Shown: positions 10 through 37,361 of the stretch, piece after piece
Layout of the letters: each line of letters opens with the position of its first letter
Numbering within the stretch: the first letter of the stretch is position 1
Source: Streptomyces peucetius
Lineage (GTDB): Bacteria > Actinomycetota > Actinomycetes > Streptomycetales > Streptomycetaceae
Direction of reading: 5' to 3'
DNA length: 64,000 nucleotides
Assembly: GCF_025854275.1 (NCBI RefSeq)
Contig: NZ_CP107567.1
Span: forward strand, 620,001-684,000
Notes under the pieces: model-generated
What the model was told of the DNA's origin: nothing
Database searches by the model: none
The model's input: only the letters and a program-made list of their open reading frames with translations
Position numbers and translations under genes: made by a program

Positions 10-80
10 GTTCGAGATTTCGTGCTGCGTCCCTTATTTCGAACCTCTCCAGGCTATGCTCCTCGAAGAAAGGCGGTCAA
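10..80 (-). promoter_or_regulatory. Leftward promoter with tandem operators, for a gene left of the window
   Basis: On the minus strand there is a TTGACC -35 at 75-80 and a TAGCCT -10 at 51-56, 18 bp apart. Downstream of it lie two operator-like 16-mers, at 10-25 (GTTCGAGATTTCGTGC) and 29-44 (GTCCCTTATTTCGAAC), offset by 19 bp. The same arrangement recurs at the other promoters of this cluster. It implies that a co-regulated gene is transcribed leftward, just outside the window. Confidence 0.55.
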
Positions 81-96
81 GGGCGCTCGCGCCCCA

Positions 97-163
97 TTGA
101 CATGCGACGACCTCCATCCTTACTGTCGCGGCAGAATTTCGAACATGTGTCGAGATATCGAAC
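97..163 (+). promoter_or_regulatory. Promoter and tandem operators of the dehydratase operon
   Basis: TTGACA at 97-102 and TACTGT at 121-126 are 18 bp apart. Two bases later come operator 16-mers at 129-144 and 148-163 (TGTCGAGATATCGAAC), again 19 bp apart. The operators cover the expected transcription start, which fits repression by steric block. The IclR protein encoded at 10516-11286 is the obvious candidate regulator; that link is inferred. Confidence 0.65.
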
Positions 164-181
164 ATGACAGGAGCAACTGCC

Positions 182-1342
182 TTGCGCATCACGGGAATCA
201 GCACACATGTGATCGGAACCCCTTGGCGGAACCTCACCTACGTGCAGATCCACACCGACGAGGGGCTCACCGGCATCGGGGAGACCCGCATGCTGGGCCA
301 CACCGACGCCCTCATCGGTTATCTGCGCGAGGCGGAGGCGAACCACATCGCGGGCTCCGACCCGTTCGCCGTCGAGGACCTGGTGCGCCGCATGAAGTAC
401 GGCGACTACGGCCGGGCCGGCGAGATCGTCATGTCGGGCATCGCCTGCGTGGAGATGGCCTGCTGGGACATCAAGGGCAAGGCCCTCGGAGTGCCGGTCT
501 GGCAGCTGCTCGGCGGCAAGGTCCACGACCGGGTCAAGGCGTACGCGAACGGCTGGTACACCACCGAGCGGACCCCGGAGGCGTACCACAAGGCCGCCCG
601 CGCGGTGATGGAGCGCGGCTACCGGGCCCTGAAGATCGACCCGTTCGGCACGGGCCACTACGAGCTGTCGCACGAGGAGACGCTGTACTCGGTGTCGCTG
701 ATCGAGGCGGTCCGGGACGCGATCGGCCCCGATGCCGAGCTGATGCTGGAGATGCACGGCCGCTTCTCCCCGTCCACCGCCGTGCGGCTGGCGGGCGAGC
801 TCGCCCCGTACCGGCCGGCCTGGCTCGAGGAGCCCGTGCCGCCGGAGAATCTCAAGGCGCTCACGAAGGTTGCCGGGAAGGTCGACATGCCGATCGCCAC
901 CGGCGAACGCATCCACGACCGCATCGAGTTCCGTGAGCTGTTCGAGTCGCAGGCGGCCGACATCCTCCAGCCGGACGTCGGCCACATCGGCGGCATCCTG
1001 GAGACCCGCAAGCTCGCCGCCACGGCCGAGACCCACTACATGCTCGTGGCACCGCACAACGTCGGCGGACCCGTTCTGACGGCCGCGTCGCTCCAGGTCG
1101 GCTTCTCCACGCCGAACTTCAAGATCCTCGAGCACTTCAACGACTTCGCCGACGCCGAGATCAAGAAGGTCGTCAAGGGGGCGCCGCAGGTCGTGGACGG
1201 CTACTTCGAGCTGTCCCACGCACCGGGGCTCGGGGTCGAGCTGGACACCGACGCCGCGGCGGAATTCCCGCAGCAGCAGGCCAGGTTCGACCTGTGGGCC
1301 GAGGGCTGGGAGAAGCGCGACCCGACGGGGAAGCAGGCATGA
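182..1342 (+). CDS. Enolase-superfamily sugar-acid dehydratase (galactonate dehydratase-like)
   Basis: Mandelate racemase/muconate lactonizing enzyme family, probably dehydrating an aldonic acid to a 2-keto-3-deoxy acid. Metal-ligand and catalytic candidates are visible: E190 and H192 in LEMHGRF, E216/E217 in WLEEP, E242 in TGER, H292 in APHN and E317 in LEH, a DgoD/ManD-like set. I prefer the TTG start at 182. AGGAG lies 8 bases upstream of it, while the alternative ATG at 164 abuts an operator and would place that ribosome site inside the gene. The gene overlaps the next one by ATGA. The substrate is not determined; galactonate, arabinonate and related acids are all possible. Confidence 0.85.
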   Translation: MRITGISTHVIGTPWRNLTYVQIHTDEGLTGIGETRMLGHTDALIGYLREAEANHIAGSDPFAVEDLVRRMKYGDYGRAGEIVMSGIACVEMACWDIKGKALGVPVWQLLGGKVHDRVKAYANGWYTTERTPEAYHKAARAVMERGYRALKIDPFGTGHYELSHEETLYSVSLIEAVRDAIGPDAELMLEMHGRFSPSTAVRLAGELAPYRPAWLEEPVPPENLKALTKVAGKVDMPIATGERIHDRIEFRELFESQAADILQPDVGHIGGILETRKLAATAETHYMLVAPHNVGGPVLTAASLQVGFSTPNFKILEHFNDFADAEIKKVVKGAPQVVDGYFELSHAPGLGVELDTDAAAEFPQQQARFDLWAEGWEKRDPTGKQA

Positions 1343-2370
1343 CCGCCGGCGGGGCGGACCACCCGTCCCGGGAGATCGTCCTCGACGGTCCCGGCCGGTT
1401 CCGGCAGGCGCGGCACACCCCGCGCCCGCCGGGCCCCGGCGAGGCACAGGTCCGTGTCGCGGCGGTCGGCATCTGCGGCAGTGACCGGGAGGTGTTCCAG
1501 GGCACCCGGCCGGAGGGCTACGTCCGCTACCCCGTCGTACCGGGACACGAGTGGTCGGGCACCGTGGCGGCCGTCGGTGACGGTGTACCCGGCTCCCTCG
1601 TCGGCCGGAAGGTCGTTGGCGAGGGCTTCCGCAACTGCCAGGTCTGCGACCGCTGCCACGCGGGCGAGACCACACTGTGCGGCGCCGGTTACGAGGAGAC
1701 CGGGTTCACCCGGCCCGGGGCGATGGCCTCGACCCTCACCCTCCCGGCCCGGCTGCTGCACCTGCTGCCGGACGACGCCGATCCGGCGGCCGCCGCCCTG
1801 CTCGAGCCGGCGGCGTGTGTCGCCGCCGCGGCGCTCAAGGCGGACGTCCGCCCCGGTGAGCGCGTGGCCGTCGTGGGCACCGGCACGCTGGGCATGCTCG
1901 CCGCGCAGCTCCTCCACGCCTGCTCCCCCGCCGAGTTGCTGATGGTGGGCACCCGGCCCGACCGGGCCGAAACGGCCCGGTCCTTCGGAGCGACGGACTA
2001 CCGCACGGTGGAAGAAGAGCCTCTGCCGGGCGGGGTCGACGTCGTCGTCGAGGCCGCCGGGTCGGCGTCGGCCGCCCGGGCTTCGGCCGCGCTGCTGCGG
2101 CGCGGCGGCCGGCTGGTGCTCACCGGTATTCCCGCGCCCGGCGCCGTCGGGCTGGACCCGACCGATCTCGTGGTGCGCCAGCTGGAGGTGCGGACCGTTT
2201 TCGGCGCGCCGCCGGCCGCCTGGGCCCACGCCGTGCGCGCCTTCGCCGCCGGGCTGCTCACCCCACTGCCGCTGGTCACCCATGAGCTGACGCTCGACGA
2301 GTTCGAGCACGCCATGGACCTGGTGGGCTCCGGCGACCCCGCGGTCGGCAAGGTGCTGCTGCGCCCCTGA
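1339..2370 (+). CDS. Zinc-dependent alcohol/polyol dehydrogenase
   Basis: Medium-chain dehydrogenase of about 343 residues, within the usual 340-360. It has a GHEWSG catalytic-zinc segment, a structural-zinc cysteine lobe (C..C..C followed by a fourth Cys in QVCDRCHAGETTLC), and a Rossmann motif in VGTGTLGMLAAQLL. The ATG start overlaps the dehydratase stop by four bases, so translation is probably coupled and the two enzymes likely share a pathway. Roles that fit are sugar 1-dehydrogenase or oxidation of a keto-deoxy acid intermediate. Sequence alone does not choose between them. Confidence 0.85.
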   Translation: MTAGGADHPSREIVLDGPGRFRQARHTPRPPGPGEAQVRVAAVGICGSDREVFQGTRPEGYVRYPVVPGHEWSGTVAAVGDGVPGSLVGRKVVGEGFRNCQVCDRCHAGETTLCGAGYEETGFTRPGAMASTLTLPARLLHLLPDDADPAAAALLEPAACVAAAALKADVRPGERVAVVGTGTLGMLAAQLLHACSPAELLMVGTRPDRAETARSFGATDYRTVEEEPLPGGVDVVVEAAGSASAARASAALLRRGGRLVLTGIPAPGAVGLDPTDLVVRQLEVRTVFGAPPAAWAHAVRAFAAGLLTPLPLVTHELTLDEFEHAMDLVGSGDPAVGKVLLRP

Positions 2371-2424
2371 GGACACCCACATGAGGGCCGGGCGGCGATC
2401 TGCGCCGCACCGGCCCGCATGCAC

Positions 2425-2459
2425 GACTACGAACTCGAACGACATTCGGTATTTCGAAC
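2425..2459 (+). promoter_or_regulatory. Tandem operators before the first U32-like gene
   Basis: Operator-like 16-mers lie at 2425-2440 (right half CTCGAAC) and 2444-2459 (ATTCGGTATTTCGAAC), 19 bp apart as elsewhere in the cluster. I see no convincing -35/-10 pair just upstream, so transcription may also read through from the dehydratase operon. Confidence 0.55.
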
Positions 2460-2496
2460 AGACCGACACCCCTCATCAGTCAGCCGGAGGAGATCC

Positions 2497-3462
2497 ATGT
2501 CCCCGTCCTCACCCCCGCGCCGCCCCGGCGAGCCCGCCATGACCGCTCTCGGCTTCGGCGGCGCGACCCTCGACCCCGCCGACGCCTCCCCGCACACCTT
2601 TCCCGACGGCGGCCGCTGGCGGGTGGAGATCCCGTCCGTCGAGGGACCGGAGGCGCTGGCCGCCGTGCTCAAGGAATCGACCCGGCTCGACCTTCCCGTG
2701 CACCGCATCAGCCAGGGCAGCGGCGTCTGGATGCTCAGCGACGACGAGATCACCGAGATGGTGGAGGCGACGGCCGAACGGGACATCGAGCTCTGCCTGT
2801 TCACCGGCCCGCGCGGCACCTGGGACATCGGGGCCTCCGCCCGTACCGACTCCCGCGGCGGCGGTCTGCGTGCCCGTGGGCACGACGCGGTCGCCGGCTG
2901 TGTGGAGGACGCCCTGCGCGCCACGGAACTCGGCGTCCGCTGCCTGCTGGTGGCCGACGAGGGGGTGCTGTGGACACTGCACCGGGCCCGGGTCCGGGGT
3001 CTGCTGCCCGCTGACACCACCCTGAAGGTCTCGGCGCTCATCGGCCCGGTCAACCCGGCGGCGTACGCCGTGTACGAGCGCCTCGGCGCCGATTCCCTCA
3101 ACGTGCCCAGCGATCTGACGCCCGCCCACCTCACCGAGATCCGCCGGATCAGCCGTGCCCCGATGGACATGTACGTGGAGGCACCGGACGACCTCGGCGG
3201 CTACGTCCGGATGTACGAGATCGCCGAGCTGATCCGGCGCGGCGCTCCCCTCTACCTCAAGTTCGGGCTCGCCAAGGCCCCGTCCCTCTATCCGTCGGGC
3301 CTGCATCTGCGGGAGACCGTCCTGAGCACGGCCCGTGAGCGGGTACGCCGGGGCAGGCTGGCGCTCGACCTGCTGGCCCGGCACGGGGCCGGCGACCTGA
3401 TGTCGCCGCTCGGTACGCGGCTGCCGGGCGAGCTGCACCGCTTCGGGGACGCCGGCGTCTGA
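2497..3462 (+). CDS. U32-peptidase-like TIM-barrel protein, paralogue 1
   Basis: About 321 residues, no signal peptide. The sequence resembles the barrel of proteins annotated as U32 peptidases (COG0826-like), with conserved stretches [32 protein letters not shown] and YLKFGL. I see no standard protease motif. A close paralogue lies at 11480-12529, and both are beside sugar-acid or sugar-import genes under the same operator type. That context favours a role in carbohydrate metabolism, perhaps aldol cleavage or isomerisation, over proteolysis. The start is the ATG preceded by GGAGGAG. Family assignment is moderate and the function unknown. Confidence 0.7.
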   Translation: MSPSSPPRRPGEPAMTALGFGGATLDPADASPHTFPDGGRWRVEIPSVEGPEALAAVLKESTRLDLPVHRISQGSGVWMLSDDEITEMVEATAERDIELCLFTGPRGTWDIGASARTDSRGGGLRARGHDAVAGCVEDALRATELGVRCLLVADEGVLWTLHRARVRGLLPADTTLKVSALIGPVNPAAYAVYERLGADSLNVPSDLTPAHLTEIRRISRAPMDMYVEAPDDLGGYVRMYEIAELIRRGAPLYLKFGLAKAPSLYPSGLHLRETVLSTARERVRRGRLALDLLARHGAGDLMSPLGTRLPGELHRFGDAGV

Positions 3463-3467
3463 CACCA

Positions 3468-3524
3468 CACACGGAAGGGCCGGGGCGCACCGTTTCACCG
3501 GATGCGCCCCGGCCCTTCCGTGTG
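3468..3524. terminator. Bidirectional terminator between convergent operons
   Basis: A 22-bp perfect inverted repeat (arms 3468-3489 and 3503-3524) with a 13-base loop sits between the stop at 3462 and the stop of the convergent permease gene at 3537. It is very stable and GC-rich, as expected for termination from both sides in this genus. Confidence 0.85.
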
Positions 3525-3536
3525 CGTGGCCGGTGG

Positions 3537-4433
3537 CTACTGGCCGGCGAGGCCCGTGTGCGCGATACCGCGCACGATCTGCCGCTGGAAGAGCATGAAC
3601 ACGATCAGCAGCGGCAGTCCGGCGATCACCAGGGACGCCATGATCTGCGCGTACCGGACACCGAACGACGACTGGACGTTGACCAGACCGACGGGCAGCG
3701 TCATACCGGCGGGGTCCGTGGTCACCAGGAACGGCCACAGGAAGTTGTTCCAGGTGGAGATGAAGGTGAAGATCGCGACGGCGGCGAGTACCGGCCGGGA
3801 CAGCGGCATCACGATCGTCCAGAAGACCCGCCAGCGCCCGGCGCCGTCGACGAAGGCCGCTTCCTCCAGCTCGCGCGGCACCCCTTCGAAGAACTTCACC
3901 AGGATGAAGACCATGGCCGGGACGGCGACCTGAGGCAGGATCACGCCCCAGTAGGTGTCGACCAGACCGAGCTGCACCATCTCGGTGAACAGCGGCGCGA
4001 TCAGCACCTGCGGCGGAACCATGATGCCCGCGAGGACCAGCCCGTAGAGCACCTTGCGGCCGCGGAAGTCGGTGCGGGTGAAGCCGTAGGCGGCCATCGC
4101 GCACGTCAGCACGGTCAGCGCGGTCGTCATGAGGGAGATGAACGCGGAGTTCATCATCCAGCGCGTCAGATCGCCGGACTCCCACACCTTGGTGTACGCG
4201 TCGAGCGTGATGCGGGAGCCGATCCACTGGAGCGGGGTGCTCGTCGTCTCGGCCTCGGGCTTCAGCGAGGTCGCGACGGCCCACGCGAGCGGGACGAGCC
4301 AGGCGGCGGCGAGGACCAGGGCGACCACCAGCAGGGCGATCCGGCCCCCGGTCCAGCGCACTCTGCGGCCGCCGGTCTCGGCGGCGGCGGTCCGGCGCGC
4401 GGAGGCGATCTTGACGGAGACGGAACCGCTCAC
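3537..4433 (-). CDS. Carbohydrate ABC transporter permease (MalG/AraQ-like)
   Basis: About 298 residues with six predicted hydrophobic segments. The EAA loop of binding-protein-dependent permeases is visible near ELEEAAFVDGAGRWRVFWTIVMP. The gene is last in an operon read leftward: GH43, GH51, solute-binding protein, permease 1, permease 2. Its ATG overlaps the stop of permease 1 by four bases. With the GH51 and GH43 genes upstream, the likely cargo is arabino-oligosaccharides. No ATPase is encoded here, so a shared MsiK-type ATPase is expected, as is usual for Streptomyces. Confidence 0.88.
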   Translation of the reverse strand: MSGSVSVKIASARRTAAAETGGRRVRWTGGRIALLVVALVLAAAWLVPLAWAVATSLKPEAETTSTPLQWIGSRITLDAYTKVWESGDLTRWMMNSAFISLMTTALTVLTCAMAAYGFTRTDFRGRKVLYGLVLAGIMVPPQVLIAPLFTEMVQLGLVDTYWGVILPQVAVPAMVFILVKFFEGVPRELEEAAFVDGAGRWRVFWTIVMPLSRPVLAAVAIFTFISTWNNFLWPFLVTTDPAGMTLPVGLVNVQSSFGVRYAQIMASLVIAGLPLLIVFMLFQRQIVRGIAHTGLAGQ

Positions 4434-6729: not shown

Positions 6730-6867
6730 GGCGGCTCGTCTCTGCGGGAGTTCGGTCGTCGGCTGAGGTTGCGGTAGGGGCACCGGGGGCCGCCCGGCCT
6801 CGGTGCTCCGGGCGACCGGGGGCGGGCGGCGGCTTGTGGGGAAGGGCGGGCCGGCTCGGGCGGTGGG

Positions 6868-8397
6868 TCAGGCGTCGGTGGCCAGGCGGATCACGTTCCA
6901 CGACAGCGGCTCGAGGGTGACCTCGAGGCCCCCGCCGCCGACCCGGGCGCCCTGACCGGCGTGCGGTACGACGCGCTCGGGGTCGGTCAGGGTGTTGCGC
7001 GCGTCCGGGTCTGCGTCGCTGAGCACGCTGTGCTCCACGACACGGCTCACGTCCAGCCCCGACAGGGCCACCTGGAGCGGCAGCGGCCGGCTCTGGCTGC
7101 GGTTCACGGCGAAGACGGTGACGGCGCCGCTCTCCGGGTCGCGTACGGCGGTGGCGTGCAGCAGCGGCACCTCGCCGTAGGCGGCCGTCTCGTACGTGGG
7201 CGACTCGGCCCGTACGTCGAGGACCTCGCCGCGCCCGTACCGGGACGCCTGGGCGAAGGGGAAGAACGTCGTCTGCCGCCAGGCGGGGCCGCCCGGTTCG
7301 GTCATGATCGGGGCGATCACATTGACGAGCTGGGCGAGAGCGGCGACGGTGACCCGGTCGGCGTGGCGCAGCAGTGCGATCAGCAGCGAGCCGAAGACGA
7401 CGGCGTCGGTGACGCTGTAGTTGTCCTCCAGCAGCCGCGGTGCCTCCCGCCAGTCCAGCGGGTTCGCCTCGGTCTCTGCCTGGAAGCGCTTCTGGTACCA
7501 GACGTTCCACTCGTCGAAGGAGAGCTGGATCTTCTTCTTCGACTTGAGCCGGGCACCCACGTGGTCGCAGGTGGCGACGACGTTCTCGATGAAGGACTCC
7601 ATGTCGACGGCGGAGGCGAGGAACGAGTCGCGGTCCCCGTCGAGTTCCTCGTAGTAGGCGTGCAGCGAGATGTGGTCGACCAGGTCGTACGTCTCCTTCA
7701 GGACCGTCGCCTCCCACGCGGCGAAGGTGGGCATGGCCTGGCTGGAACTGCCGCAGGCCACGAGCTCCACCCCGGGGTCGATCTGGCGCATCGCCCGGGC
7801 CGTCTCCGCCGCCAGCCGGCCGTACTCCTCCGCCGTCTTGTGGCCGGTCTGCCAGGGCCCGTCCATCTCGTTGCCGAGACACCACAGACGGATGCCGAAC
7901 GGGTCCTTGTCGCCGTGCGCGATGCGCCGGTCGGACAGTTCGGTGCCGGCCGGGTGGTTGGCGTACTCCTGGAGCTGGAGCGCCTCGGCCACGCCTCGCG
8001 TGCCGAGGTTCACGGCCATCATCGGCTCGGCCTCGGGGCCCGCCTTCTTCAGGAAGGCCATGAACTCGCTCAGCCCGAACCGGTTGGTCTCGGTTGACCG
8101 CCAGGCGAGGTCGAGACGGCGCGGCCGCTCCTCGGCCGGACCGACGGAGTCCTCCCACCGGTAGCCGGAGACGAAGTTGCCGCCGGGGTAGCGGATCACG
8201 GTGACGCCGAGTTCGCGGACCAGTTCCAGGACGTCGGTCCGCAGCCCGGCTTCGTCGGCGGCCGGGTGGCCGGGCTCGAAGATGCCGGTGTAGACACAGC
8301 GGCCCAAGTGCTCGACGAAGGAGCCGAAGAGACGTGGATTCACCTCTCCCACGGTGAAGGCCGGGTCGAGAGTGAAGCGGGCGTTGCTGTCGGGCAT
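6868..8397 (-). CDS. Cytoplasmic alpha-L-arabinofuranosidase, GH51
   Basis: About 509 residues with no signal peptide, matching intracellular GH51 enzymes in length. The acid/base is E177 in LGNEMDGPW and the nucleophile E296 in SFDEWNVWY; RYPGGNFVSGYRWED is also diagnostic. It releases L-arabinose from imported arabino-oligosaccharides. The gene lies between the GH43 arabinanase and the importer genes, so one transcript encodes backbone cutting, uptake and final hydrolysis. Downstream, 6730-6867 holds only imperfect GC-rich hairpins. Confidence 0.93.
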   Translation of the reverse strand: MPDSNARFTLDPAFTVGEVNPRLFGSFVEHLGRCVYTGIFEPGHPAADEAGLRTDVLELVRELGVTVIRYPGGNFVSGYRWEDSVGPAEERPRRLDLAWRSTETNRFGLSEFMAFLKKAGPEAEPMMAVNLGTRGVAEALQLQEYANHPAGTELSDRRIAHGDKDPFGIRLWCLGNEMDGPWQTGHKTAEEYGRLAAETARAMRQIDPGVELVACGSSSQAMPTFAAWEATVLKETYDLVDHISLHAYYEELDGDRDSFLASAVDMESFIENVVATCDHVGARLKSKKKIQLSFDEWNVWYQKRFQAETEANPLDWREAPRLLEDNYSVTDAVVFGSLLIALLRHADRVTVAALAQLVNVIAPIMTEPGGPAWRQTTFFPFAQASRYGRGEVLDVRAESPTYETAAYGEVPLLHATAVRDPESGAVTVFAVNRSQSRPLPLQVALSGLDVSRVVEHSVLSDADPDARNTLTDPERVVPHAGQGARVGGGGLEVTLEPLSWNVIRLATDA

Positions 8398-8423
8398 GGT
8401 GTCCTTCCGAAAGGTGTGGGGCG

Positions 8424-9461
8424 TCAGGGGCCGACGACGGGCCAGCCGTCCGCGCCCCAGGTCAGGGCGTTGAGGCCGAGCTTGGGCCTGCCGCCGTCCT
8501 GGCCGTCGTAGTAGTGGTAGACGAGGACGTCCCGGCCGCGGTCGCGGAGCACGGACTGGCCGCCGGTGCCGATGTGGCGGCCGTGTCCGGCGAGCAGCAA
8601 TTCGCCGCCGCCGTCGGTCATGGCGGTGCCGTCGCGGTCGTAGTAGGGGCCGGTGGGGCTGGTGGACCGGCCGACGCGGATGTTGTACGTCGACTCGGTG
8701 CCGGCGCAGCACCGGTCGTAGGAGACGAAGAGGTAGTAGTGGCGGCCGTGCCGGACGATGTACGGCGCCTCGACGGCGTACGGCGCGTCCGGGCGGGTGG
8801 CGAGGTGCAGCACCTCGGGGTCGGCGGTGGCCGGCTTGCCGGTACGGCGGTCGAGTTCGATCATCCGGATGCCGGTCCAGTACGAGCCGAAGCTCATCCA
8901 GACCCGGCCGTCGGCCTGGATGACGGCTGGATCGATCGCGTTGTAGTGGTCGGAGGTCGTGGTGGCGAAGACGACGCCACGGTCCTGCCACGTGCCGGGC
9001 CTGCCGGAGGGCGAGGTGGCCAGGCCGATGGCGGAGTGGTTGGAGCCGAAGGACGAGACGGCGTAGTAGAGCCAGTGGACGCCGTCGCGGTAGGTGACCT
9101 CCGGTGCCCAGGGGTCGCCTTCGGGCGAGTAGGCGCGCCACCAGTCGGGGATCTCGGTGAAGGCGGACCCGGCGCGCCGCCATGTCCTGCCGTCCTGCGA
9201 GACGCGGGCCTCGATCCTGTTGTGGGTGGAGTAGAGGACGTAGCTGCCGTCCGCCAGACGAATGGCGGACGGGTCGTGGACCTCGGTGTCCCCGGTGACG
9301 GGGCGCGGGTCCGGATACGCGGCGGCGGACGCCGGGGCGCGGGCGGCGCGGTCCGCGGCGTGGCCGGGCAGCGTGCCGGCGCCGCAGAGGGCCGCGGCGA
9401 GGGCGGCGGCGGTCAGGGCGGTCCTGAGGTGCTTGCGGTGTTTGGGTCGCGCGGCGTTCAT
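8424..9461 (-). CDS. Secreted endo-1,5-alpha-L-arabinanase / arabinosidase, GH43
   Basis: About 345 residues with a Sec-type signal peptide (basic start, Ala-rich core, cleavage near HAAD). The five-bladed GH43 catalytic triad can be placed: D63 (VHDPSAI, base), D177 (AIDPAV) and E231 (VEAPYI, acid). SYDRCCAG is typical of arabinan endo-1,5-arabinosidases. I chose the ATG at 9461 because AAGGAG lies nine bases upstream; that sequence overlaps the earlier in-frame ATG at 9479. This is the first gene of the leftward arabinan operon. Confidence 0.92.
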   Translation of the reverse strand: MNAARPKHRKHLRTALTAAALAAALCGAGTLPGHAADRAARAPASAAAYPDPRPVTGDTEVHDPSAIRLADGSYVLYSTHNRIEARVSQDGRTWRRAGSAFTEIPDWWRAYSPEGDPWAPEVTYRDGVHWLYYAVSSFGSNHSAIGLATSPSGRPGTWQDRGVVFATTTSDHYNAIDPAVIQADGRVWMSFGSYWTGIRMIELDRRTGKPATADPEVLHLATRPDAPYAVEAPYIVRHGRHYYLFVSYDRCCAGTESTYNIRVGRSTSPTGPYYDRDGTAMTDGGGELLLAGHGRHIGTGGQSVLRDRGRDVLVYHYYDGQDGGRPKLGLNALTWGADGWPVVGP

Positions 9462-9518
9462 GAAGGGCGGCTCCTTCATCTGACGGGGGGTGGGAAGGGG
9501 AGCACCGCGCCGCCATCT

Positions 9519-9585
9519 GTTCGAAATACCGGCACATGCTCGCCACTTCGAACGGGACCGTAGACGCGGGGAAACGCGCCGTCAA
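9519..9585 (-). promoter_or_regulatory. Promoter and tandem operators of the GH43 operon
   Basis: On the minus strand TTGACG (9580-9585) and TACGGT (9557-9562) are 17 bp apart. Three bases later come the operators 9538-9553 (GCTCGCCACTTCGAAC) and 9519-9534 (GTTCGAAATACCGGCA), offset by 19 bp. The geometry matches that of the dehydratase and ChvE-operon promoters. Confidence 0.65.
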
Positions 9586-9592
9586 TGATTTT

Positions 9593-9627
9593 CGCTGAAA
9601 TGACGAACAACGTTCGATATAGCGAAC
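9593..9627. promoter_or_regulatory. Second tandem operator pair upstream of the GH43 promoter
   Basis: The element at 9612-9627 (GTTCGATATAGCGAAC) is one of the two best palindromes of the series. Its partner at 9593-9608 keeps the right half-site CGAAC and the central AT. The pair lies just upstream of the -35, so this promoter is flanked by two operator pairs, which would allow tighter control or looping. Confidence 0.6.
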
Positions 9628-9667
9628 ATGCGGCGAGCTGCTCACCGCCGCGGGCACCCCCCTCCGC

Positions 9668-10519
9668 TCAGCCCGCGAACGCCGGCTGCGCCAGCCCCTT
9701 TCCGGCATCGGGCAGCACCAGCACCGAGCCCGACAGCGGGTGCGGCGCCGCGAGTCCCTTACGGGCGGTGGTGATGTAGAGGTCCGCGAGGGCCTCGCCG
9801 CCGAACGCACACGCGGTGGGCCGGCGCACCGGAAGCGCGACCACGCGGTCCAGCACGCCCTGCGGCGTGTAGCGCCGCACTGCGCCGCCGTCCCACAGGG
9901 CGACCCAGACACAGCCGTCCGCGTCCACGGTCAGCCCGTCGGGGAACCCCGCGCCCGGCTCGACGACGGCCAGCGGACGGCGGTTCACCGGCAGCGGTTC
10001 ACCGGGGCGCACGTCGAACACGTCGATGCGGCGGGTCGGCGAGTCGATGTAGTACATCCGGCTGCCGTCCGGGCTCCAGCCCGTGCCGTTGCTGACGGCC
10101 ACATCGGTCAGCAGCGGGGCCGCCGCGCCGTCCGGCGCGATCCGGGTCAGCGTCCCGCCTCCGGCTGCCTCGTCGTAGCGCATGGTCCCGGCCCACAGCG
10201 AGCCGTCCGGCGCCACCGCGGCGTCGTTGCCGCGCCGCCCGTCGGCCGCATCCCGGTGCAGCCAGCGGAACGCGCCCCCGGCGTCGTAGAGCCCCACGCC
10301 GTCGCGGAGGTTGACGACCACTCCCCCGCCGGCGCGGGGCTTGGCCGCTCCGACGTGCTGCTCGGTGGCCATGACGGTACGCCGGCCGGTGGCCGGGTCG
10401 TAGGTGTGCACGCGCGCGGAGAGGATGTCGACCCACAGCAGGCGTGCGGCCGACGCGTCCCAGGTGGGCCCCTCGCCCAGTACGGCCTCGTGCCGCACCG
10501 CGATCTCGAGCCCCATCAC
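9668..10519 (-). CDS. SMP-30/gluconolactonase family sugar lactonase
   Basis: About 283 residues, a six-bladed propeller of the SMP-30/regucalcin family. Visible features are GEGPTWDA (metal-binding Glu), NGTGWSPDGSRMYYIDS and FPDGLTVDADG. It would hydrolyse an aldonolactone to the aldonic acid, the step between a sugar 1-dehydrogenase and the enolase-type dehydratase at the left end. The start is GTG at 10519, which shares GTGA with the IclR stop; the adjacent ATG at 10516 is equally possible. Co-transcription with the regulator suggests it belongs to the regulated pathway. Confidence 0.87.
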   Translation of the reverse strand: MMGLEIAVRHEAVLGEGPTWDASAARLLWVDILSARVHTYDPATGRRTVMATEQHVGAAKPRAGGGVVVNLRDGVGLYDAGGAFRWLHRDAADGRRGNDAAVAPDGSLWAGTMRYDEAAGGGTLTRIAPDGAAAPLLTDVAVSNGTGWSPDGSRMYYIDSPTRRIDVFDVRPGEPLPVNRRPLAVVEPGAGFPDGLTVDADGCVWVALWDGGAVRRYTPQGVLDRVVALPVRRPTACAFGGEALADLYITTARKGLAAPHPLSGSVLVLPDAGKGLAQPAFAG

Positions 10520-11286
10520 AGCGCCCGGTGCCCGAGCCGCTCGGACAGGTCCGCGGCGCCCTTGGCGGCCAGCGGCCGCAGCTCGGCGAGGCGTTCCTCG
10601 CTCCAGCGGATCATCGGCACGGAGATGGACAGCGCGGCGACGACCCGGCCGGAGCGGTCGCGCACCGGCGCGGCGACACAGCTCACGTCCGCGTTCGACT
10701 CGCGCTGCTCCAGGGCGATGCCGGCGGACCGGATGTTCGCGAGTTCGGAGCGCAGGACGGCCGGGTCGGTGATGCTGTTCGGCGTCATGGCCACCAGTTC
10801 GGTGCCCGGTGCGAGCCGGGCGTCGAGCTGGTCCTCGGGGAGGGAGGCGAGCAGCATCTTGCCCACGGCGGTGCAGTGGGCCGGCAGGCTCCGGCCCGCG
10901 GCGGAGACCATACGGACGGCGTGGGTGGAGTCGACCTTCGCGACGTAGAGGACCTGGGAGCCGTCCAGGATCGCGACATGGACGGTCTCGCCGCAGGTCT
11001 GCGCGACGGAGCGGGCGACCTCCTGGCCCTCGCGGGCGAGGTCGAGCTGCTCGGCGTAGCGGCTGCCCAGCTGGTAGGTGCGGACGCCGAGCCGGTAGCG
11101 GCCGGACTGGCCCTCGACCGGGACGAGGTAGGACCGGGCCGTGAGCGTGGTGATGAGTTCGTGCACAGTGGTGCGCGGCAGCTGGAGTTTGCGGACGATG
11201 TCGGGTGCCGACAGCGTCCCGTCCCCGTCGAGGAAGAGCTCCAGAATGTCGAGAGCCCGGGTGACAGCGGGCACGTGGCGTCCCAT
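10516..11286 (-). CDS. IclR-family transcriptional regulator
   Basis: About 256 residues: N-terminal winged helix (AVTRALDILELFLDG through TVHELITTL) and a C-terminal effector domain with GETVHVAILDG, LPAHCTAVGKMLLA and SISVPMIRW, all typical of IclR. It starts at the ATG preceded by GGGGGA. Its own promoter carries a tandem operator pair (11299-11333), and the same pair type appears at eight other places between 10 and 17935. I infer that it is the cluster-wide repressor, released by a sugar, lactone or sugar acid. Confidence 0.9.
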   Translation of the reverse strand: MGRHVPAVTRALDILELFLDGDGTLSAPDIVRKLQLPRTTVHELITTLTARSYLVPVEGQSGRYRLGVRTYQLGSRYAEQLDLAREGQEVARSVAQTCGETVHVAILDGSQVLYVAKVDSTHAVRMVSAAGRSLPAHCTAVGKMLLASLPEDQLDARLAPGTELVAMTPNSITDPAVLRSELANIRSAGIALEQRESNADVSCVAAPVRDRSGRVVAALSISVPMIRWSEERLAELRPLAAKGAADLSERLGHRAL

Positions 11287-11298
11287 GACTTCCCCCTT

Positions 11299-11339
11299 GT
11301 TCGAGATATCAACGCTTGACCGACTGAGCGAACAGTCTA
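11299..11339 (-). promoter_or_regulatory. Autoregulatory operators of the IclR-lactonase operon
   Basis: Operators at 11299-11314 (GTTCGAGATATCAACG) and 11318-11333 (GACCGACTGAGCGAAC) are 19 bp apart. A TAGACT hexamer on the minus strand at 11334-11339 abuts the upstream operator and may be the -10. A weak TTACCG -35 candidate lies 17 bp above it. Confidence 0.6.
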
Positions 11340-11397
11340 TCTCCGCAACCGCCCGCCGGTAAGCGTTGCGGATCTGCGGTTTCGGTCGCCAGACCCA

Positions 11398-11464
11398 TTG
11401 ACACCCACCCGGCCCGGTCCTTACCTTCACCACAGAATCTCGAACGACGTCCGAAATGCCGAAC
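11398..11464 (+). promoter_or_regulatory. Promoter and tandem operators of the U32-like/ChvE operon
   Basis: TTGACA (11398-11403) and TACCTT (11422-11427) are 18 bp apart. Two bases later are operators 11430-11445 (CCACAGAATCTCGAAC) and 11449-11464 (GTCCGAAATGCCGAAC). The -35, spacer, -10, gap and operator distances equal those at 97-163 exactly. Confidence 0.7.
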
Positions 11465-11479
11465 AATTGAGGTTTGCTC

Positions 11480-12529
11480 GTGACCCCTCCTCCCGCGCCG
11501 GCCGCCACCGGCAAACGCCGACCCGGTGAAGCGGCACTCGCCGCGCTCGGCCTGGCCGCTCCCGCAGACGACCCGGCGGACGCCTCCCCGCACCGGTTCC
11601 CCGACGGAGGCAGCTGGCGCACCGAGATCCCCTCCTGCGAGGGGCCCGAGACGCTGGCCGTCGTACTCGAGGAGGCCGCCCGGCTGGACCTGCCGATCCA
11701 CCGCATCAGCCAGGGCAGCGGCGTCTGGATGCTGACCGACGGCGAGATCACGGAGATGGCCGGGGCCTGCGCGGAACGCGGCATCGAGCTGTGCCTGTTC
11801 ACCGGACCGCGCGGCAGCTGGGACATCGGCGCGTCGACACGTACCGACTCCGGCGGTTCGGGGCTGCGGGCCCGCGGTCACGACGCGCTGGCCGGCTGCG
11901 TCGAGGACGCCCTGCGCGCCGCCTCCCTCGGCGTCCGGTGTCTGCTGGTCGCGGACGAGGGCGTGCTCTGGAGCCTGCACCGGCTGCGCGAGCAGGGCCT
12001 GCTGCCGGCCGATACGACGTTCAAGGTCTCCGCGCTGGTGGGCCCGGTCAACCCGGCCGCGTACGCGGTCCACGAACGACTCGGCGCCGACTCCGTCAAC
12101 GTCCCTTCCGACCTGACGCTCGCTCACCTCACCGAGATCCGCCGGGTCAGCGGTGCTCCGATGGACCTCTACATCGAGGCGCCCGACGACCTCGGCGGCT
12201 ATGTCCGCATGTACGAGGCGGCGGAGCTCATCCGGCGCGGCGCCCCGCTCTACCTCAAGTTCGGACTGAGCAGGGCTCCCGGCTTTTACCCGTACGGCGC
12301 CCACATGAAGGACACGATGCTGGCGTCGGCGCGCGAACGCGTCCGGCGGGGACGGCTCGTGCTCGACCTGCTGGCCCGGCACGGCGCCGACGCCGGGATG
12401 TCACCGCTCGGCTCCCGCCTGCCCGGCCCTCTCCACCGTTTTCCGGTCACCGACCGGACCGTCACGGATCTGCCCGTGGACCTGCCCGATGCCGCCCCGG
12501 CGGTCATGACCTCACCCCTTAAGGACTGA
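11480..12529 (+). CDS. U32-peptidase-like TIM-barrel protein, paralogue 2
   Basis: About 349 residues, very similar to the protein at 2497-3462 through the barrel core ([39 protein letters not shown]) but with a longer C-terminal tail. The start is GTG at 11480 with GAGG seven bases upstream. It is the first gene of the ChvE/MmsAB importer operon and its stop overlaps the region before the binding-protein start. Keeping two regulated copies beside sugar-acid and sugar-uptake genes points to a metabolic role. No function is established from the sequence. Confidence 0.72.
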
Positions 12530-12534
12530 TGACA

Positions 12535-13641
12535 ATGCGTAACCGCCGAACCATGGTCACCGCCTCCGTCTCCGCCGCGCTGGCGCTGTCCCTCGCCGCC
12601 TGCGGCCAGAACAGCACCGGCGGCAGCAAGGAGGAGCAGAAGGGCGGCAAGGGCGCCACCATCGGCATCGCCATGCCGACGAAGTCGTCCGAGCGGTGGA
12701 TCGCCGACGGCGACAACATGGCGGCCCAGTTCCAGAAGCTGGGCTACAAGACGGATCTGCAGTACGGCGACGACGACGTCGACCGGCAGGTCTCCCAGAT
12801 CGAGAACATGATCACCAAGGGCGCGGACGTCCTCGTCGTCGCCGCCATCGACGGCCGTGCACTCAGCGACGTACTGCGCCAGGCCGGCGAGCGGGGCATC
12901 GAGGTGATCTCCTACGACCGGCTCATCCTCGGCAGTGACAACGTCGACTACTACGCGTCCTTCGACAACGAGAAGGTCGGTGAACTCCAGGCCGGCTACA
13001 TCGTGGAGAAGCTGGGTCTGAAGGACGGCAGCGCCGAAGGCCCGTTCAACATCGAGCTGTTCGCCGGCTCCCCCGACGACAACAACACCCGCTTCTTCTT
13101 CGAGGGCGCGTGGAAGGTCCTCAAGCCCTACATCGACAAGAAGCAGCTGGTGGTCCGCAGCGGGCAGACCCGGCTGGAGCAGATCACCACCCTGCGCTGG
13201 GACGGCGGCACCGCGCAGAAGCGCATGGACGACCTGCTGACCGGCTCGTACTCGTCGGACACCGTGGACGCCGTGCTCTCGCCGTACGACGGGATCTCGA
13301 TCGGCATCCTGTCCGCCCTCAAGTCGGACGGCTACGGCACCAAGGCCAAGCCGTACCCGGTGGTCACCGGGCAGGACGCGGAGGTCGCCTCCGTCAAGTC
13401 CATCATCGCCGGGCAGCAGACGCAGACCGTGTACAAGGACACCCGCGCGCTCGCCAAGCAGGCGGTGCAGATGGCCGACGCCGTGCTGAACGACAAGAAG
13501 CCCGAGGTCAACGACACCACGACCTACAACAACGAGAGGAAGGTCGTGCCCTCCTTCCTGCTCGACCCGGTCAGCGTCGACAAGTCCAACTACAAGAAGA
13601 TCCTCGTCGACTCCGGCTACATCAAGGCGAGCGACCTGTGA
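12535..13641 (+). CDS. Multiple-monosaccharide binding lipoprotein (ChvE type)
   Basis: About 368 residues with a lipoprotein signal ending at Cys23 (LSLAAC). The periplasmic-binding fold of the ChvE/XylF group is recognisable: [38 protein letters not shown] and [14 protein letters not shown]. ChvE proteins bind D-galactose, D-glucose, L-arabinose or D-xylose; the context suggests L-arabinose or galactose here. ATG 12535 is preferred over ATG 12529 because AAGGA is nine bases upstream. The next gene starts inside its stop codon (GTGA). Confidence 0.9.
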
Positions 13642-15194
13642 CCGGCGGCGCCGCACCGATCCTCGAGATGCGCTCGATCGGCAAGTCCTTCCCGGGCGTG
13701 CGGGCGCTGTCGGACGTGACGCTGACCGTGGCGCCCGGCGAGGTGCACGCCATCTGCGGGGAGAACGGCGCGGGCAAGTCGACGCTGATGAAGGTCCTCA
13801 GCGGGGTCCATCCGCACGGCAGTTACGAGGGGGAGATCCTCTTCGAGGGCGAGACGTGCGCCTTCAAGGACATCCGGGCGAGCGAGGACCGCGGCATCGT
13901 CATCATCCACCAGGAGCTCGCGCTGGTGCCGTACCTGTCCATCGCGGAGAACATCTTCCTCGGCAACGAGCACGCCCGGCGGGGCATCATCAGCTGGAAC
14001 GAGACCCTGCGGCACGCCGCCGCCCTGCTGCAGCGCGTCGGTCTCCACGAGCACCCGCAGACCCGCGTCGCGGACATCGGCGTGGGCAAGCAGCAGCTCG
14101 TGGAGATCGCCAAGGCGCTCTCCAAGAAGGTCAGACTGCTCATCCTCGACGAGCCGACGGCCGCGCTCAACGACGAGGACAGCGCCAAACTCCTGGACCT
14201 GATGAAGGAGTTGAAGGAGCAGGGCATGACCTCGATCATCATCTCGCACAAGCTGGGCGAGATCGCCGAGGTCGCCGACTCCGTCACCGTCATCCGCGAC
14301 GGCCGCACCATCGAGACCCTGGACGTCAGGGACGGGAACACGACGGAGGACCGCATCATCCGCGGCATGGTGGGCCGCGATCTGGACCACCGGTTCCCCG
14401 AACGCACGCCGTGGACCGGCGAGCGGGGGGAGCACCCGGCGCTGGAGATCCGGGACTGGACCGTGCACCATCCGATCGACCAGCAGCGCAAGGTGGTCGA
14501 CAAGGTGTCCGTGAACGTCCGCAGGGGCGAGATCGTCGGCATCGCCGGGCTGATGGGCGCCGGACGCACGGAGCTGGCCATGAGCGTCTTCGGCCGCTCG
14601 TACGGGCGCAACATCAGCGGAACGGTGCTCAAGGACGGCAAGGAGATCAGGACCCGCACGGTCCCGGAGGCGGTGGGACACGGGATCGCCTACGTCACCG
14701 AGGACCGCAAGCACTACGGCCTCAACCTCATCGACACCATCGGCCGCAACATCACCATGAGCGCCCTGTCCAAGGTCTCCCGGCGCGGTGTCGTGGACGA
14801 GCACGCGGAACGCCGGGTCGCGGAGTCGTACCGCACCAGCATGAACATCAAGGCTCCGACGGTCTTCGAGCAGGTCGGCCGGCTCTCCGGCGGCAATCAG
14901 CAGAAGGTCGTCCTCAGCAAGTGGATCTTCGCGGGTCCCGACGTACTGATCCTCGACGAGCCCACCCGCGGCATCGACGTGGGCGCCAAGTTCGAGATCT
15001 ACACCGTGATCGACCGGCTCGCGGCCGAGGGCAAGGCCGTCGTCCTCATCTCCTCCGAACTCCCCGAACTGCTCGGCATGTGCGACCGCATCTACACGAT
15101 GTCCGGCGGCCGTCTCACGGGCGAGGTGCCGCGCGGCGAGGCGACCCAGGAAGCCCTCATGCGCCACATGACCGACACCAGCGACAAGAGGTAA
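13638..15194 (+). CDS. Monosaccharide ABC transporter ATP-binding protein (MmsA/GguA type)
   Basis: About 518 residues, two fused ATPase halves as in RbsA, XylG and MmsA. The first half has Walker [10 protein letters not shown] and [12 protein letters not shown]. The second has the degenerate P-loop region [10 protein letters not shown] with signature SGGNQQKV and [11 protein letters not shown]. It powers uptake through the permease that follows. The GTG start shares four bases with the upstream stop. Confidence 0.93.
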
Positions 15195-15199
15195 CAGAC

Positions 15200-16438
15200 A
15201 TGGGCCCGGTCACCACCGACGCCAAGAACAGCCCGCCCCGCCCGGCGCCGCCGGGCGCACGCTCCACCACGAAGACGCTCCTGATGGACGCGGCCCGCCG
15301 CAACATGCGGCAGTACGGGATGCTCGTCGCCCTGGCGCTCATCGTCGTGCTCTTCGAGATATGGACCGACGGCGTCCTGCTGATGCCGAACAACGTCACC
15401 AATCTCGTCCTCCAGAACAGCTACATCCTGGTACTCGGCATCGGCATGATGATCGTCATCATCTCGGGCCACATCGATCTGTCGGTCGGCTCCCTGGCGG
15501 CCCTCGTCTCCGCGGCGTGCGCGGTGATGATGGTCGAGCACGACGTGCCGTGGGTGCTCGCCGTGGTGCTCGCCCTGTGCATCGGCGCGCTCGCGGGCGC
15601 GTGGCAGGGCTTCTGGATCGCGTACGTCGGCATCCCCTCGTTCATCGTCACCCTGGCGGGCATGCTGCTGTTCCGCGGCGGCACCCAGATCCTGCTCGGC
15701 AGCCGGTCGCTCGGGCCGTTCCCGGAGGGGTTCCAGAAGATCTCCACCGGCTATCTGCCGGAGGTCGGCCCGGTCACCAACTACCACAACCTGACCCTGC
15801 TGCTGGGTCTCGCGCTGCTCGCGTTCGCGCTGTGGCAGGAGGTCCGTGACCGTCGCCGGCAGCAGAAGTACGACCTCGACGTGCTGCCGCGGGGCCTGTT
15901 CCTCGCCAAGTGCGCGGCCCTGGCGGCGGCGGTCCTCGCCTTCACCCTGACCCTCGCCAGCTACCGGGGCGCCCCGGTCGTGCTGCTCCTGCTGGCGGCC
16001 CTGCTCGTCGGCTTCGGCTTCGTCATGCGCAACGCGGTCGTGGGCCGCCATGTGTACGCCCTCGGCGGCAACCAGGCGGCGGCCAAGCTGTCGGGCGTGA
16101 AGGACAAGCGCGTCACGTTCCTGGTGTTCGTCAACATGGGTGTGCTGGCGGCGCTGGCGGGCGTGGTGTACGCCGCGCGCCTCAACGCCGGTGTGCCGCA
16201 GGCGGGCGTGAACTTCGAACTCGAGGCCATCGCGGCCGCGTTCATCGGCGGGGCCTCCATGAGCGGCGGCGTCGGGACGGTGCTCGGCGCGGTCATCGGC
16301 GGCCTGGTCCTCGGCGTGCTCAACAACGGCATGTCGCTCGTCGGTATCGGCAGCGACTATCAGCAGGTCATCAAGGGCCTGGTGTTGCTGGCCGCGGTCG
16401 GTTTCGACGTCTGGAACAAGCGCAAGGTCGGTTCCTGA
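15200..16438 (+). CDS. Monosaccharide ABC transporter permease (MmsB/GguB type)
   Basis: About 412 residues with roughly ten membrane segments. The family signature GHIDLSVGSLAALVSA is present, as are GGNQAAAKLSGV and FIGGASMSGGVGTVLGAVIGG near the end. It forms the membrane channel for the ChvE/MmsA complex and is the last gene of the operon, followed at once by a strong terminator. The start ATG lies five bases after the MmsA stop. Confidence 0.93.
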   Translation: MGPVTTDAKNSPPRPAPPGARSTTKTLLMDAARRNMRQYGMLVALALIVVLFEIWTDGVLLMPNNVTNLVLQNSYILVLGIGMMIVIISGHIDLSVGSLAALVSAACAVMMVEHDVPWVLAVVLALCIGALAGAWQGFWIAYVGIPSFIVTLAGMLLFRGGTQILLGSRSLGPFPEGFQKISTGYLPEVGPVTNYHNLTLLLGLALLAFALWQEVRDRRRQQKYDLDVLPRGLFLAKCAALAAAVLAFTLTLASYRGAPVVLLLLAALLVGFGFVMRNAVVGRHVYALGGNQAAAKLSGVKDKRVTFLVFVNMGVLAALAGVVYAARLNAGVPQAGVNFELEAIAAAFIGGASMSGGVGTVLGAVIGGLVLGVLNNGMSLVGIGSDYQQVIKGLVLLAAVGFDVWNKRKVGS

Positions 16439-16446
16439 TCTCCACG

Positions 16447-16481
16447 GGGCCGCCGGTACGGGATCCCCGTACCGGCGGCCC
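16447..16481. terminator. Terminator after the ChvE/MmsAB operon
   Basis: A 16-bp perfect stem (16447-16462 with 16466-16481) and a three-base loop follow the permease stop. A convergent epimerase gene ends at 16547, so it may serve both directions. Confidence 0.85.
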
Positions 16482-16546
16482 TTGTGCTGTGCGGGGGCCG
16501 GCACCGCGGCGCGGAACCGGCCCCCTGTGCTGTCCTGCACCCGGTT

Positions 16547-17740
16547 TCAGAAGGTCCCGAAGGAGTGCACGGTCGAGGACCGGTACGTCTGCCCGGGGCG
16601 GAGCACGGTCGAGGGGAAGCCGGCCTGGTTGGGTGAGTCGGGGAAGTGCTGGGTCTCGAGACAGAAGCCGTCGCCCTGGCGATAGACCCGTCCGGAGGTG
16701 CCCATCAGCGTGCCGTCGAGGAAGTTCCCGCTGTAGAACTGCACTCCGGGCTCGGTGGTGGCGATCCTCATGATCCGTCCGGATGCCGGGTCCGCCACCG
16801 TGACCACCTGCTCCGGGGACGCGGTGATGCCCTTGTCGAGCACGAAGTTGTGGTCGTATCCCTGCCCCAGCAGGATCTGCTCGTGTCCGTCACGCAGGTC
16901 CTCACCGATGGGCTTGCCGTGCCGGAAGTCGAAGGGTGTCCGTGCGACCGGCGCCCTTTCGCCGGTCGGGATGAGGCCGGCGTCGACGGGTGTGTAGCGG
17001 GAGGCGTCGATCCGCAGCCGGTGGTCGTGGACCGTGCCGCTGCCCTCCCCCGCGAGGTTGAAGTACGTGTGGTGGGTGAGGTTGACGACGGTGGCCCGGT
17101 CCGTGGTCGCCTCGTAGTCGATGCGGAAGTCGCCGCGCGGGGTGAGCACGTAGTCGACGCGGACCGTCAGCGTGCCCGGGTAGCCCATCTCGCCGTGCGG
17201 GCTCACGCGGCGCAGGGTGAGCCCGGTGTCGGCACCCCTCCGGTACGGCTCGACGTCCCAGACCCGCTTGTCGAAGCCCCGGTCCCCGCCGTGGAGGCTG
17301 TTGGTCCCGTCGTTGGCCGGAAGCCGGTACTCCGTCCCGTCGAGGGTGAACCGCGCGCCGGCTATCCGGTTCCCGTAACGGCCGATGAGAGCGCCGAAGT
17401 ACGGGCTCTTCGCGACGTAGCCCGCCAGATCGGCGAAGCCGAGGGACACGTTCGCCGGCCGGCCCCGGCGGTCGGGGATCTCGAGCACCTGGACGATGCC
17501 TCCGTACGACAGAACGCGCAACCGGGTGCCGCCGGCCGCGACCGTCCAGCGATCGACGGGGGTGCCGTCGTCCAATGTGCCGAAGTGCTCGCGCTCCGGG
17601 CCCCGCCGGCCGGCGGTCCGCGGGGAGTCCGTGGCCGCCGCCGGGCCGGTGGCCGGCGTGGCCGCCGCCGCTGTCGTCGTGGCCGCGGCGGCCGCGGCGC
17701 CCGCGGCCGCCGCCAGGACCGTGCGCCTGCTGGTCGTCAT
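16547..17740 (-). CDS. Exported aldose 1-epimerase (galactose mutarotase family)
   Basis: About 397 residues. SRR near the N-terminus followed by a long Ala-rich core suggests Tat export. GalM landmarks are present: NSLHGG, NLTHHTYFNLAG with the catalytic His, and LETQHFPDSPN with the catalytic Glu. It equilibrates sugar anomers, probably outside the membrane, to feed an anomer-specific transporter or dehydrogenase. The ATG at 17740 follows AAGGAG by eleven bases. It is divergent from the exported GH51 gene, and each promoter has its own operator pair. Confidence 0.9.
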   Translation of the reverse strand: MTTSRRTVLAAAAGAAAAAATTTAAAATPATGPAAATDSPRTAGRRGPEREHFGTLDDGTPVDRWTVAAGGTRLRVLSYGGIVQVLEIPDRRGRPANVSLGFADLAGYVAKSPYFGALIGRYGNRIAGARFTLDGTEYRLPANDGTNSLHGGDRGFDKRVWDVEPYRRGADTGLTLRRVSPHGEMGYPGTLTVRVDYVLTPRGDFRIDYEATTDRATVVNLTHHTYFNLAGEGSGTVHDHRLRIDASRYTPVDAGLIPTGERAPVARTPFDFRHGKPIGEDLRDGHEQILLGQGYDHNFVLDKGITASPEQVVTVADPASGRIMRIATTEPGVQFYSGNFLDGTLMGTSGRVYRQGDGFCLETQHFPDSPNQAGFPSTVLRPGQTYRSSTVHSFGTF

Positions 17741-17779
17741 GGTTCTTCTCACTCCTTGTCGGCCGCTGGACAGCGGCAT

Positions 17780-17845
17780 GTTCGAAATATCGATCAACGT
17801 TCGGAAGAGTGGCGTAAGTCAACGACCGCGTCCGCGCCGTGTCAA
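17780..17845 (-). promoter_or_regulatory. Tandem operators and -35 of the epimerase promoter
   Basis: Operators lie at 17780-17795 (GTTCGAAATATCGATC) and 17799-17814 (left half GTTCG). A perfect TTGACA is on the minus strand at 17840-17845. The -10 is not clear, although GACTTA at 17815-17820 is in the right place. Confidence 0.55.
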
Positions 17846-17866
17846 CAGCCCGCACGGACCCGCATA

Positions 17867-17935
17867 TTGACGCGCCCGGAGGGACTCCCCCATGCTCGCC
17901 ATGCGCAATTTCGCACAACGTTCGACATCTCGAAC
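17867..17935 (+). promoter_or_regulatory. Promoter and tandem operators of the exported GH51 gene
   Basis: TTGACG (17867-17872) and CATGCT (17891-17896) are 18 bp apart. Operators follow at 17901-17916 and 17920-17935 (GTTCGACATCTCGAAC, the second near-perfect palindrome). The gap between -10 and operator is four bases, against two or three elsewhere. Confidence 0.65.
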
Positions 17936-36896: not shown

Positions 36897-36932
36897 GATG
36901 CACCCTCTCGCCGTGATGACTGAAGAAATGAA

Positions 36933-36958: not shown

Positions 36959-37003
36959 ACGAAATGTAGGGGCGCGGCGAGAGCGCGTCAACGGTTTGGG
37001 CGA

Positions 37004-37039
37004 CGCCGAATTTCCGACCGCTCGTCCGGGATACCGAAC
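37004..37039. promoter_or_regulatory. Outlying IclR-type operator pair
   Basis: GTCCGGGATACCGAAC (37024-37039) fits the GTTCGANATNNCGAAC pattern of the arabinan cluster at most fixed positions. A weaker copy lies at 37004-37019, here offset by 20 rather than 19 bp. It may link control of the RG-I importer to the arabinan regulator. Confidence 0.4.
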
Positions 37040-37361
37040 GCCATGCGGCATGCCGGACGCTGCACGACCGTAACGGACCACCGGGGTGTGCGCCAGCCTC
37101 CATGGGCGCGCGATCCGCCGGGCACGCACGCCGGCGGCTCCGCCGCCTCGACCCGAAGAGCCCCACGACCCGGGAACGCCGGACGGCCGCCGTCCGCACG
37201 GCCGGCTCCACGACGGCGATCGCGGAGCCGGCGGCCGGCTCCGCAGCGCCGGTCGCGGCCCGATGCCGAAGGGACGACGATCGGGCGCGGCGCTTGCGGC
37301 GAGGGCAGGAACCGCTTCCGAAACACACTCACCTGCCGCCGGCCGCCGCCCCGGGAAGAAC

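Follow-up and report, generated by a model that had tools for sequence, protein, structure and literature searches.

Genes and Composite Operators in the Window

We analyzed a stretch of 64,000 nucleotides from Streptomyces peucetius (contig NZ_CP107567.1, positions 620,001 to 684,000, termed the window), in which the gene for an IclR-family regulator is accompanied by ten copies of a 35-bp composite operator (element). In each element two tandem dyads are offset by 19 bp. The elements were scored with a 35-bp weight matrix built from 75 stricter outer-arm hits (63 distinct sequences) in related genomes, the window not included. These relatives were taken from 150 searched genomes, 102 of which match the IclR protein at E <= 1e-60 and were considered orthologue carriers; 60 of the 102 iclR-positive Streptomyces genomes were sampled as stretches of at most 20 kb, excluding the window.

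The iclR gene (10516..11286, minus strand) encodes a protein that matched both PF09339 (49.4 bits) and PF01614 (165.9 bits) above cut-off, and it belongs to the IclR family. It is preceded by an element at 11299..11333 (score 22.0), suggestive of autoregulation, and forms an operon with the gene of an SMP-30-type lactonase (9668..10519, minus; PF08450). A homologue of the lactonase was found within the sampled stretch of 58 of the 60 relatives, an intracellular-type GH51 in 34 and the dehydratase described below in nine.

The leftmost element (10..44, score 35.8) is located upstream of an aldehyde dehydrogenase gene outside the window (L115:6455-7984, minus; PF00171). The element at 129..163 (score 17.0) has three arms, the upstream arm missing, with TTGACA-N18-TACTGT just upstream. 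It lies before the gene of a mandelate racemase/enolase-type sugar-acid dehydratase (164..1342, plus; PF13378 and PF02746, the nearest NCBIfam models being below cut-off), which is followed by a zinc-dependent dehydrogenase, perhaps a sugar dehydrogenase (1339..2370, plus; PF08240, PF00107). A third element, also with three arms (2425..2459), is the weakest of the ten (score 9.3), and matches an element of G129, the closest relative found, in both position and sequence. It is followed by the gene of an uncharacterised protein (2539..3462, plus). A paralogue of this protein (11474..12529, plus) lies behind a three-armed element at 11430..11464 (score 10.8) with TTGACA-N18-TACCTT just upstream, and the gene of a ChvE-type sugar-binding protein (12529-13641; NF040907 above cut-off) comes directly after it. 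The two paralogues are 81% identical over 284 residues and each is found directly behind an element. They had been labelled U32-like in an earlier reading made from the sequence alone (the sequence-only reading), a label without support, since neither matches Pfam or NCBIfam. They are likely to be pathway enzymes of an uncharacterised type, and the elements mark them as probably belonging to the arabinose pathway.

Two elements are found between the lactonase and a GH43 gene (8424..9479, minus; PF04616), whose product is putatively exported judging from its N-terminus. The element at 9519..9553 has the best score in the window (37.9) and adjoins the GH43 promoter, as TTGACG...TACGGT ends 3 bp upstream of it. 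The three-armed element at 9593..9627 (score 20.3) is located upstream of the promoter, 74 bp from 9519, and the distance is likewise 74 bp in G129. Next to the GH43 gene lies that of a GH51 arabinosylfuranosidase, ArfA (6868..8397, minus; NF051901 above cut-off; PF06964). Further right, a three-armed element (17780..17814, score 15.8) precedes an aldose 1-epimerase gene (16547..17740, minus; PF01263), and another element (17901..17935, score 28.0) precedes the gene of a second GH51 arabinofuranosidase with a carbohydrate-binding domain (17958..20546, plus; PF22848, PF06964, PF02018), also putatively exported by its N-terminus.

The tenth element (37024..37058, score 13.5) lies before the gene of a sugar ABC binding protein (35613-36896, minus), beside a GH53 galactanase (37477-39120; PF07745). 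This position links the use of arabinan to that of galactan. A LacI-like palindrome was seen by eye at about 36930-36960, close to the sugar transporter promoter.

The Offset of 19 bp

The sequence-only reading had described nine operator pairs, each offset by 19 bp, and all nine were found to read as claimed. The list was incomplete, as it missed the element at 37024. Only 12 of the 18 pair members match GTTCGANATNNCGAAC within three mismatches; the members at 129, 2425, 9593, 11318, 11430, and 17799 deviate further. Because these six had been placed by their offset only, an independent test was needed. When the relatives' matrix was applied to the window, the nine pairs ranked 1-7, 9, and 10 with scores from 37.9 to 9.3, rank 8 being the element at 37024. 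The best position overlapping no site scored -3.3, which leaves a clear gap. A total of five positions with a score of at least 9 was found in 100 random first-order Markov (Markov-1) sequences of 64 kb, compared to ten in the window.

Dyad pairs in the 60 relatives were counted by plain identity, with the dyad of the sequence-only reading completed to a palindrome and a summed maximum of 28. At a summed score of at least 22, 80 pairs had an offset of 19 bp and between zero and two had any other offset from 10 to 60 bp. At a score of at least 20 the numbers were 114 pairs and at most 11, respectively. The constant offset is therefore borne out both in the window and as an isolated peak among relatives. 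Exact TCGAAC...TCGAAC pairs within the genome of S. peucetius had no general excess at 19 bp (two of 93, both in this cluster). A single helical phase between neighbouring elements was rejected on spacings of 74, 119, 121, and 131 bp, by arithmetic only.

In G129, spacing and sequence identify equivalents of the first seven sites of the window. The distances between elements are 119, 74, and 131 bp in the window and 118, 74, and 132 bp in G129. For the site at 37024, G129 carries two elements (scores 22.9 and 23.9) before a binding protein 89% identical to that of the window. The epimerase/GH51 pair is less clear in G129, where a strong and a weak site are 85 bp apart compared to 121 bp in the window. 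In relative G067 one element adjoins an alpha-galactosidase gene.

Elsewhere in the genome of S. peucetius, an element with a score of 35.8 was found far from the cluster at 971219 (G000:C1; L114:5220-5254). Since it occupies the 5' end of a GH43 reading frame, the first of two, the gene itself probably starts further inside that frame. A candidate at 1257882 was rejected as a member of the regulon because it lies inside a long reading frame, and no composite element was found at a near-perfect dyad at 2971982. Absence from the genome scan made with model R1 means little, since only 150 of 1656 candidates were scored (E-values 0.0015-0.63) and the elements at 11299 and 37024 were not reported.

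Co-occurrence of the Element and the IclR Protein

The IclR protein had been named as the obvious ligand, and the distribution of the element among genomes supports it as the likely one. In the first draw the strict form of the element was found in 82 of the 102 genomes with an iclR orthologue and in one of the 48 without, the exception being G102. In a second draw, comprising 245 genomes from the order and defining orthologue carriers by E <= 1e-75, the numbers were 134 of 155 and 0 of 90, respectively. The two draws have 27 genomes in common, of which 19 are iclR-positive. As a control, the element read backwards gave no match in any genome row checked, and neither the orthologue nor the element was found in the 18 genomes that represent seven other genera in the second draw.

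An element was located no more than 250 bp upstream of iclR in all 60 relatives, at a distance of 45-138 bp from the point where the match begins, and no more than 200 bp upstream at all 80 named loci, which carry 40 distinct sequences. These two sets share genomes, and many of the sites entered the matrix. The unlinked sites are better evidence than those adjacent to iclR. An element was found upstream of 27 of 34 GH43 relatives with at least 65% identity and of none of six less similar GH43 genes; the 34 were taken from 38 such matches (G102, G130, G119, and G139 were left out) and the six controls from 39 less similar ones.

When compared to the PDB, the window IclR protein matched 21 sequences at E <= 1e-5, the best being 1mkm (E 8.1e-33). 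It did not reach the cut-off of the PcaR/PcaU/PobR subfamily (TIGR02431, 145.2 bits; cut-off 284.75), of KdgR of pectin use (NF011671, 164.1; cut-off 275) or of BhcR (NF045644, 174.5; cut-off 350), although the latter is its best NCBIfam match.

Position of the Element Relative to Promoters

Among 119 elements, 62 TTGAC words were found inside or within 100 bp on either side. Of these, 53 begin at a distance of 31-36 bp upstream of their element, and each of the 53 has TAnnnT behind it at a spacing of 17-19 bp, which places the end of the -10 box about 2-7 bp ahead of the element. Among the 27 GH43 promoters that carry an element, 26 have a TTGAC beginning at -35 or -36. Where a promoter is recognisable, that is for about half of the elements (53/119), the element thus likely covers the start of transcription. 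This speaks for repression.

Arm Strength and Mode of Binding

The consensus of the element is a 35-bp palindrome with four arms, GTTCGaNATnnCGan(c)-N3-(g)ntCGnnATNtCGAAC. Exact five-letter arms (GTTCG...CGAAC) were found at the outer-arm spacing 91 times in the 60 stretches, covering 54 of them and 78 distinct 35-mers. The spacing of one dyad was found five times, that of same-orientation arms 19 bp apart 17 times and that of the inner pair four times. Only the outer-arm spacing stands out, since counts go up to 29 among the remaining same-orientation spacings and up to 18 among the remaining inward ones.

Arm strength was assessed in 121 distinct elements from the window, G129, the relatives, and position 971219, with an arm considered strong when at least five of six letters agree. 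Both outermost arms were strong in 93 elements, and the commonest form was strong-weak-weak-strong (56/121). The 40 distinct sequences before iclR have outer arms with five or six of six letters in common with GTTCGA, while their inner arms mostly have three or four. In many GH43 elements (L245-L272, which lie upstream of GH43 relatives) the weak inner arm is conserved in its own right, as GACAGAT, a sequence unlike the consensus arm.

Five window elements lack one outer arm (129, 2425, 9593, 11430, and 17780). The missing arm is always the one on the promoter side, which for 2425, where no promoter was recognised, means the upstream side; this regularity was noticed post hoc.

The arm pattern, strong outside and weak inside, suggests that one IclR tetramer would fill the whole element as a single site with four arms. 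Going further, we tentatively propose that IclR might read DNA only as a preformed tetramer with its main contacts at the outermost half-sites 30 bp apart, that the inner arms could be kept weak to prevent a stable complex of DNA with a dimer, and that promoters may tune repression by which arm is dropped.

The alternative that corresponds to the sequence-only reading is two independent IclR dimers on separate 16-bp palindromes, where contacts between neighbours aid the weaker site. A dyad with two strong arms is indeed present in 42 of the 121 elements, and within the window, where four of the ten elements (9593, 11430, 17780, and 17901) contain one, rescue of a weak site by a strong one fits better than it does across all elements. 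As a general rule it was rejected on the exact-arm spacings and the arm strengths, since such a dyad is absent from 79 of the 121 elements. The poor inner arms of the 40 iclR operators also count against two dimers, as does the scarcity of lone strong dyads in the scanned stretches (12, versus 63 within composites). We regard this arrangement as unlikely. The elements amount to about 120 naturally occurring variants of the operator of one protein, a series which could reveal the half-sites that an IclR tetramer needs.

Proposed Regulon and Alternative Explanations

Altogether, we are confident that the nine pairs and the site at 37024 represent one kind of 35-bp operator with four arms, which the neighbouring IclR protein, most likely as a tetramer, would bind over the transcription start of arabinan and L-arabinose utilisation genes, repressing them until an inducer releases it. 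The analysis supports one regulon with paired occupancy, as had been claimed. Its predicted targets, the iclR-lactonase operon, GH43 and GH51, the sugar-acid dehydratase, the aldehyde dehydrogenase, and the epimerase, characterize it as a regulon for L-arabinose and arabinan; the galactan transporter is probably also a target. The dehydrogenase, lactonase, dehydratase, and aldehyde dehydrogenase presumably fit an oxidative non-phosphorylating route of L-arabinose. On the proposed mechanism two IclR dimers would lie side by side on the element with four helix-turn-helix domains, and the bound protein would block RNA polymerase at the transcription start. A sugar or sugar acid of the pathway would release it, with L-arabinose, its lactone, and L-arabonate as guesses, and iclR would repress itself through the same type of element. 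The result is a testable regulon across the genus Streptomyces.

Several observations weigh against this interpretation. No TTGAC was found at the usual place for 66 of the 119 elements, and both outer arms are strong in just three of the ten window elements (10, 9519, and 11299). Because its training elements had perfect outer arms, the matrix favours the strong-outer form; the count of exact five-letter arms is independent of it. The strict form is absent from 20 of the 102 and 21 of the 155 genomes with iclR, and two elements are present in G102, a draft of 1420 contigs without a close iclR (best identity 37%). Sites adjacent to iclR are linked to it, so part of the co-occurrence is trivial. 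Seven of the 34 GH43 relatives lack an element, including the six least similar ones. Of the 38 GH43 matches with at least 65% identity, 37 are in iclR-positive genomes, which leaves no matching promoter without iclR for comparison, and the matched control failed. The sampled genomes are furthermore related, and p-values are not to be taken literally.

The IclR family includes activators, and PcaU and PobR act in this way. IclR could similarly activate some of the promoters discussed here, for which the position of the element at 9593 upstream of the GH43 -35 and the elements without TTGAC at the usual place could be cited. At the 53 elements with a recognisable promoter an activator would itself be an obstacle, since it would sit over the start point, just behind the -10 box, and we consider activation improbable.

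It is even less probable that the elements belong to a different regulator, for example one of the LacI family, and that iclR is a bystander. The binding of IclR to the element is a prediction from sequence, and the LacI-like palindrome near 36940 makes LacI control nearby plausible. However, the element co-occurs with this IclR protein in both genome draws and precedes iclR in every one of the 60 relatives, and its motif and spacing are typical of IclR proteins. Chance pairing by eye of TTCGAA-like words in GC-rich DNA, in keeping with TCGAAC pairs at many offsets in the genome of S. peucetius, was rejected as practically negligible on the held-out matrix, the Markov-1 sequences, and the offset peak in relatives.

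Relation to Known IclR Systems

The architecture as such is already known, and what is added here is this regulator, its targets, and the strong-outer/weak-inner pattern. Excerpts of Suvorova and Gelfand 2021 (PMC8222616) report that 94 of 181 IclR groups have tandem palindromes whose centres are separated by 18-22 nt, and propose for them a tetramer with its dimers on one side of the DNA. The 19 nt of the nine window pairs and of the peak in relatives falls within this range. Sugar genes are stated there to be frequent in the subgroup NGT-12-ACN, whose consensus NGTYCRAW4TYGRACN fits GTTCGANATNTCGAAC when compared by eye. The consensus of the relatives agrees with this group-1 motif, with the outer two W4 positions unconstrained and the inner arms often below consensus. 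In contrast to the tandem sites of that study, as far as its excerpts describe them, most elements here are strong outside and weak inside, with neither palindrome complete. The same source predicts tandem and three-box binding and states that alternative dimerisation needs experimental validation. The string "arabin" is absent from its main text, and the regulator may be included in its supplementary tables. No description of this regulon was found in the open-access literature, judged by titles and opening lines of abstracts.

TtgV of Pseudomonas putida (structures 2xrn, 2xro) likewise belongs to the IclR family, and the window IclR protein matches it over residues 7-227 (E 1.7e-19). TtgV controls solvent efflux and differs in this respect from the arabinose regulator predicted here; the likeness is one of protein sequence. 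A title among the references of PMC8222616 indicates that TtgV binds its operator as a cooperative tetramer. The excerpts also describe three-box operators for PcaU, PobR, and HmgR, in which a third half-site lies beside a palindrome. The boxes of these alternate between two palindrome types, while the elements here have four arms at fixed steps with one arm sometimes missing.

Part of PMC12772271 reports that SACTE_5479, an IclR-like protein that may or may not be this orthologue, was pulled down on two xylanase promoters and a xylose isomerase promoter. Regulators termed AraR control genes for L-arabinose and arabino-oligosaccharides in gut bacteria, according to excerpts of PMC4666351 and PMC5928203. 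They act on the same pathway genes in other hosts, and the AraR of Bacteroides is described there as a member of the NrtR family, not of the IclR family.

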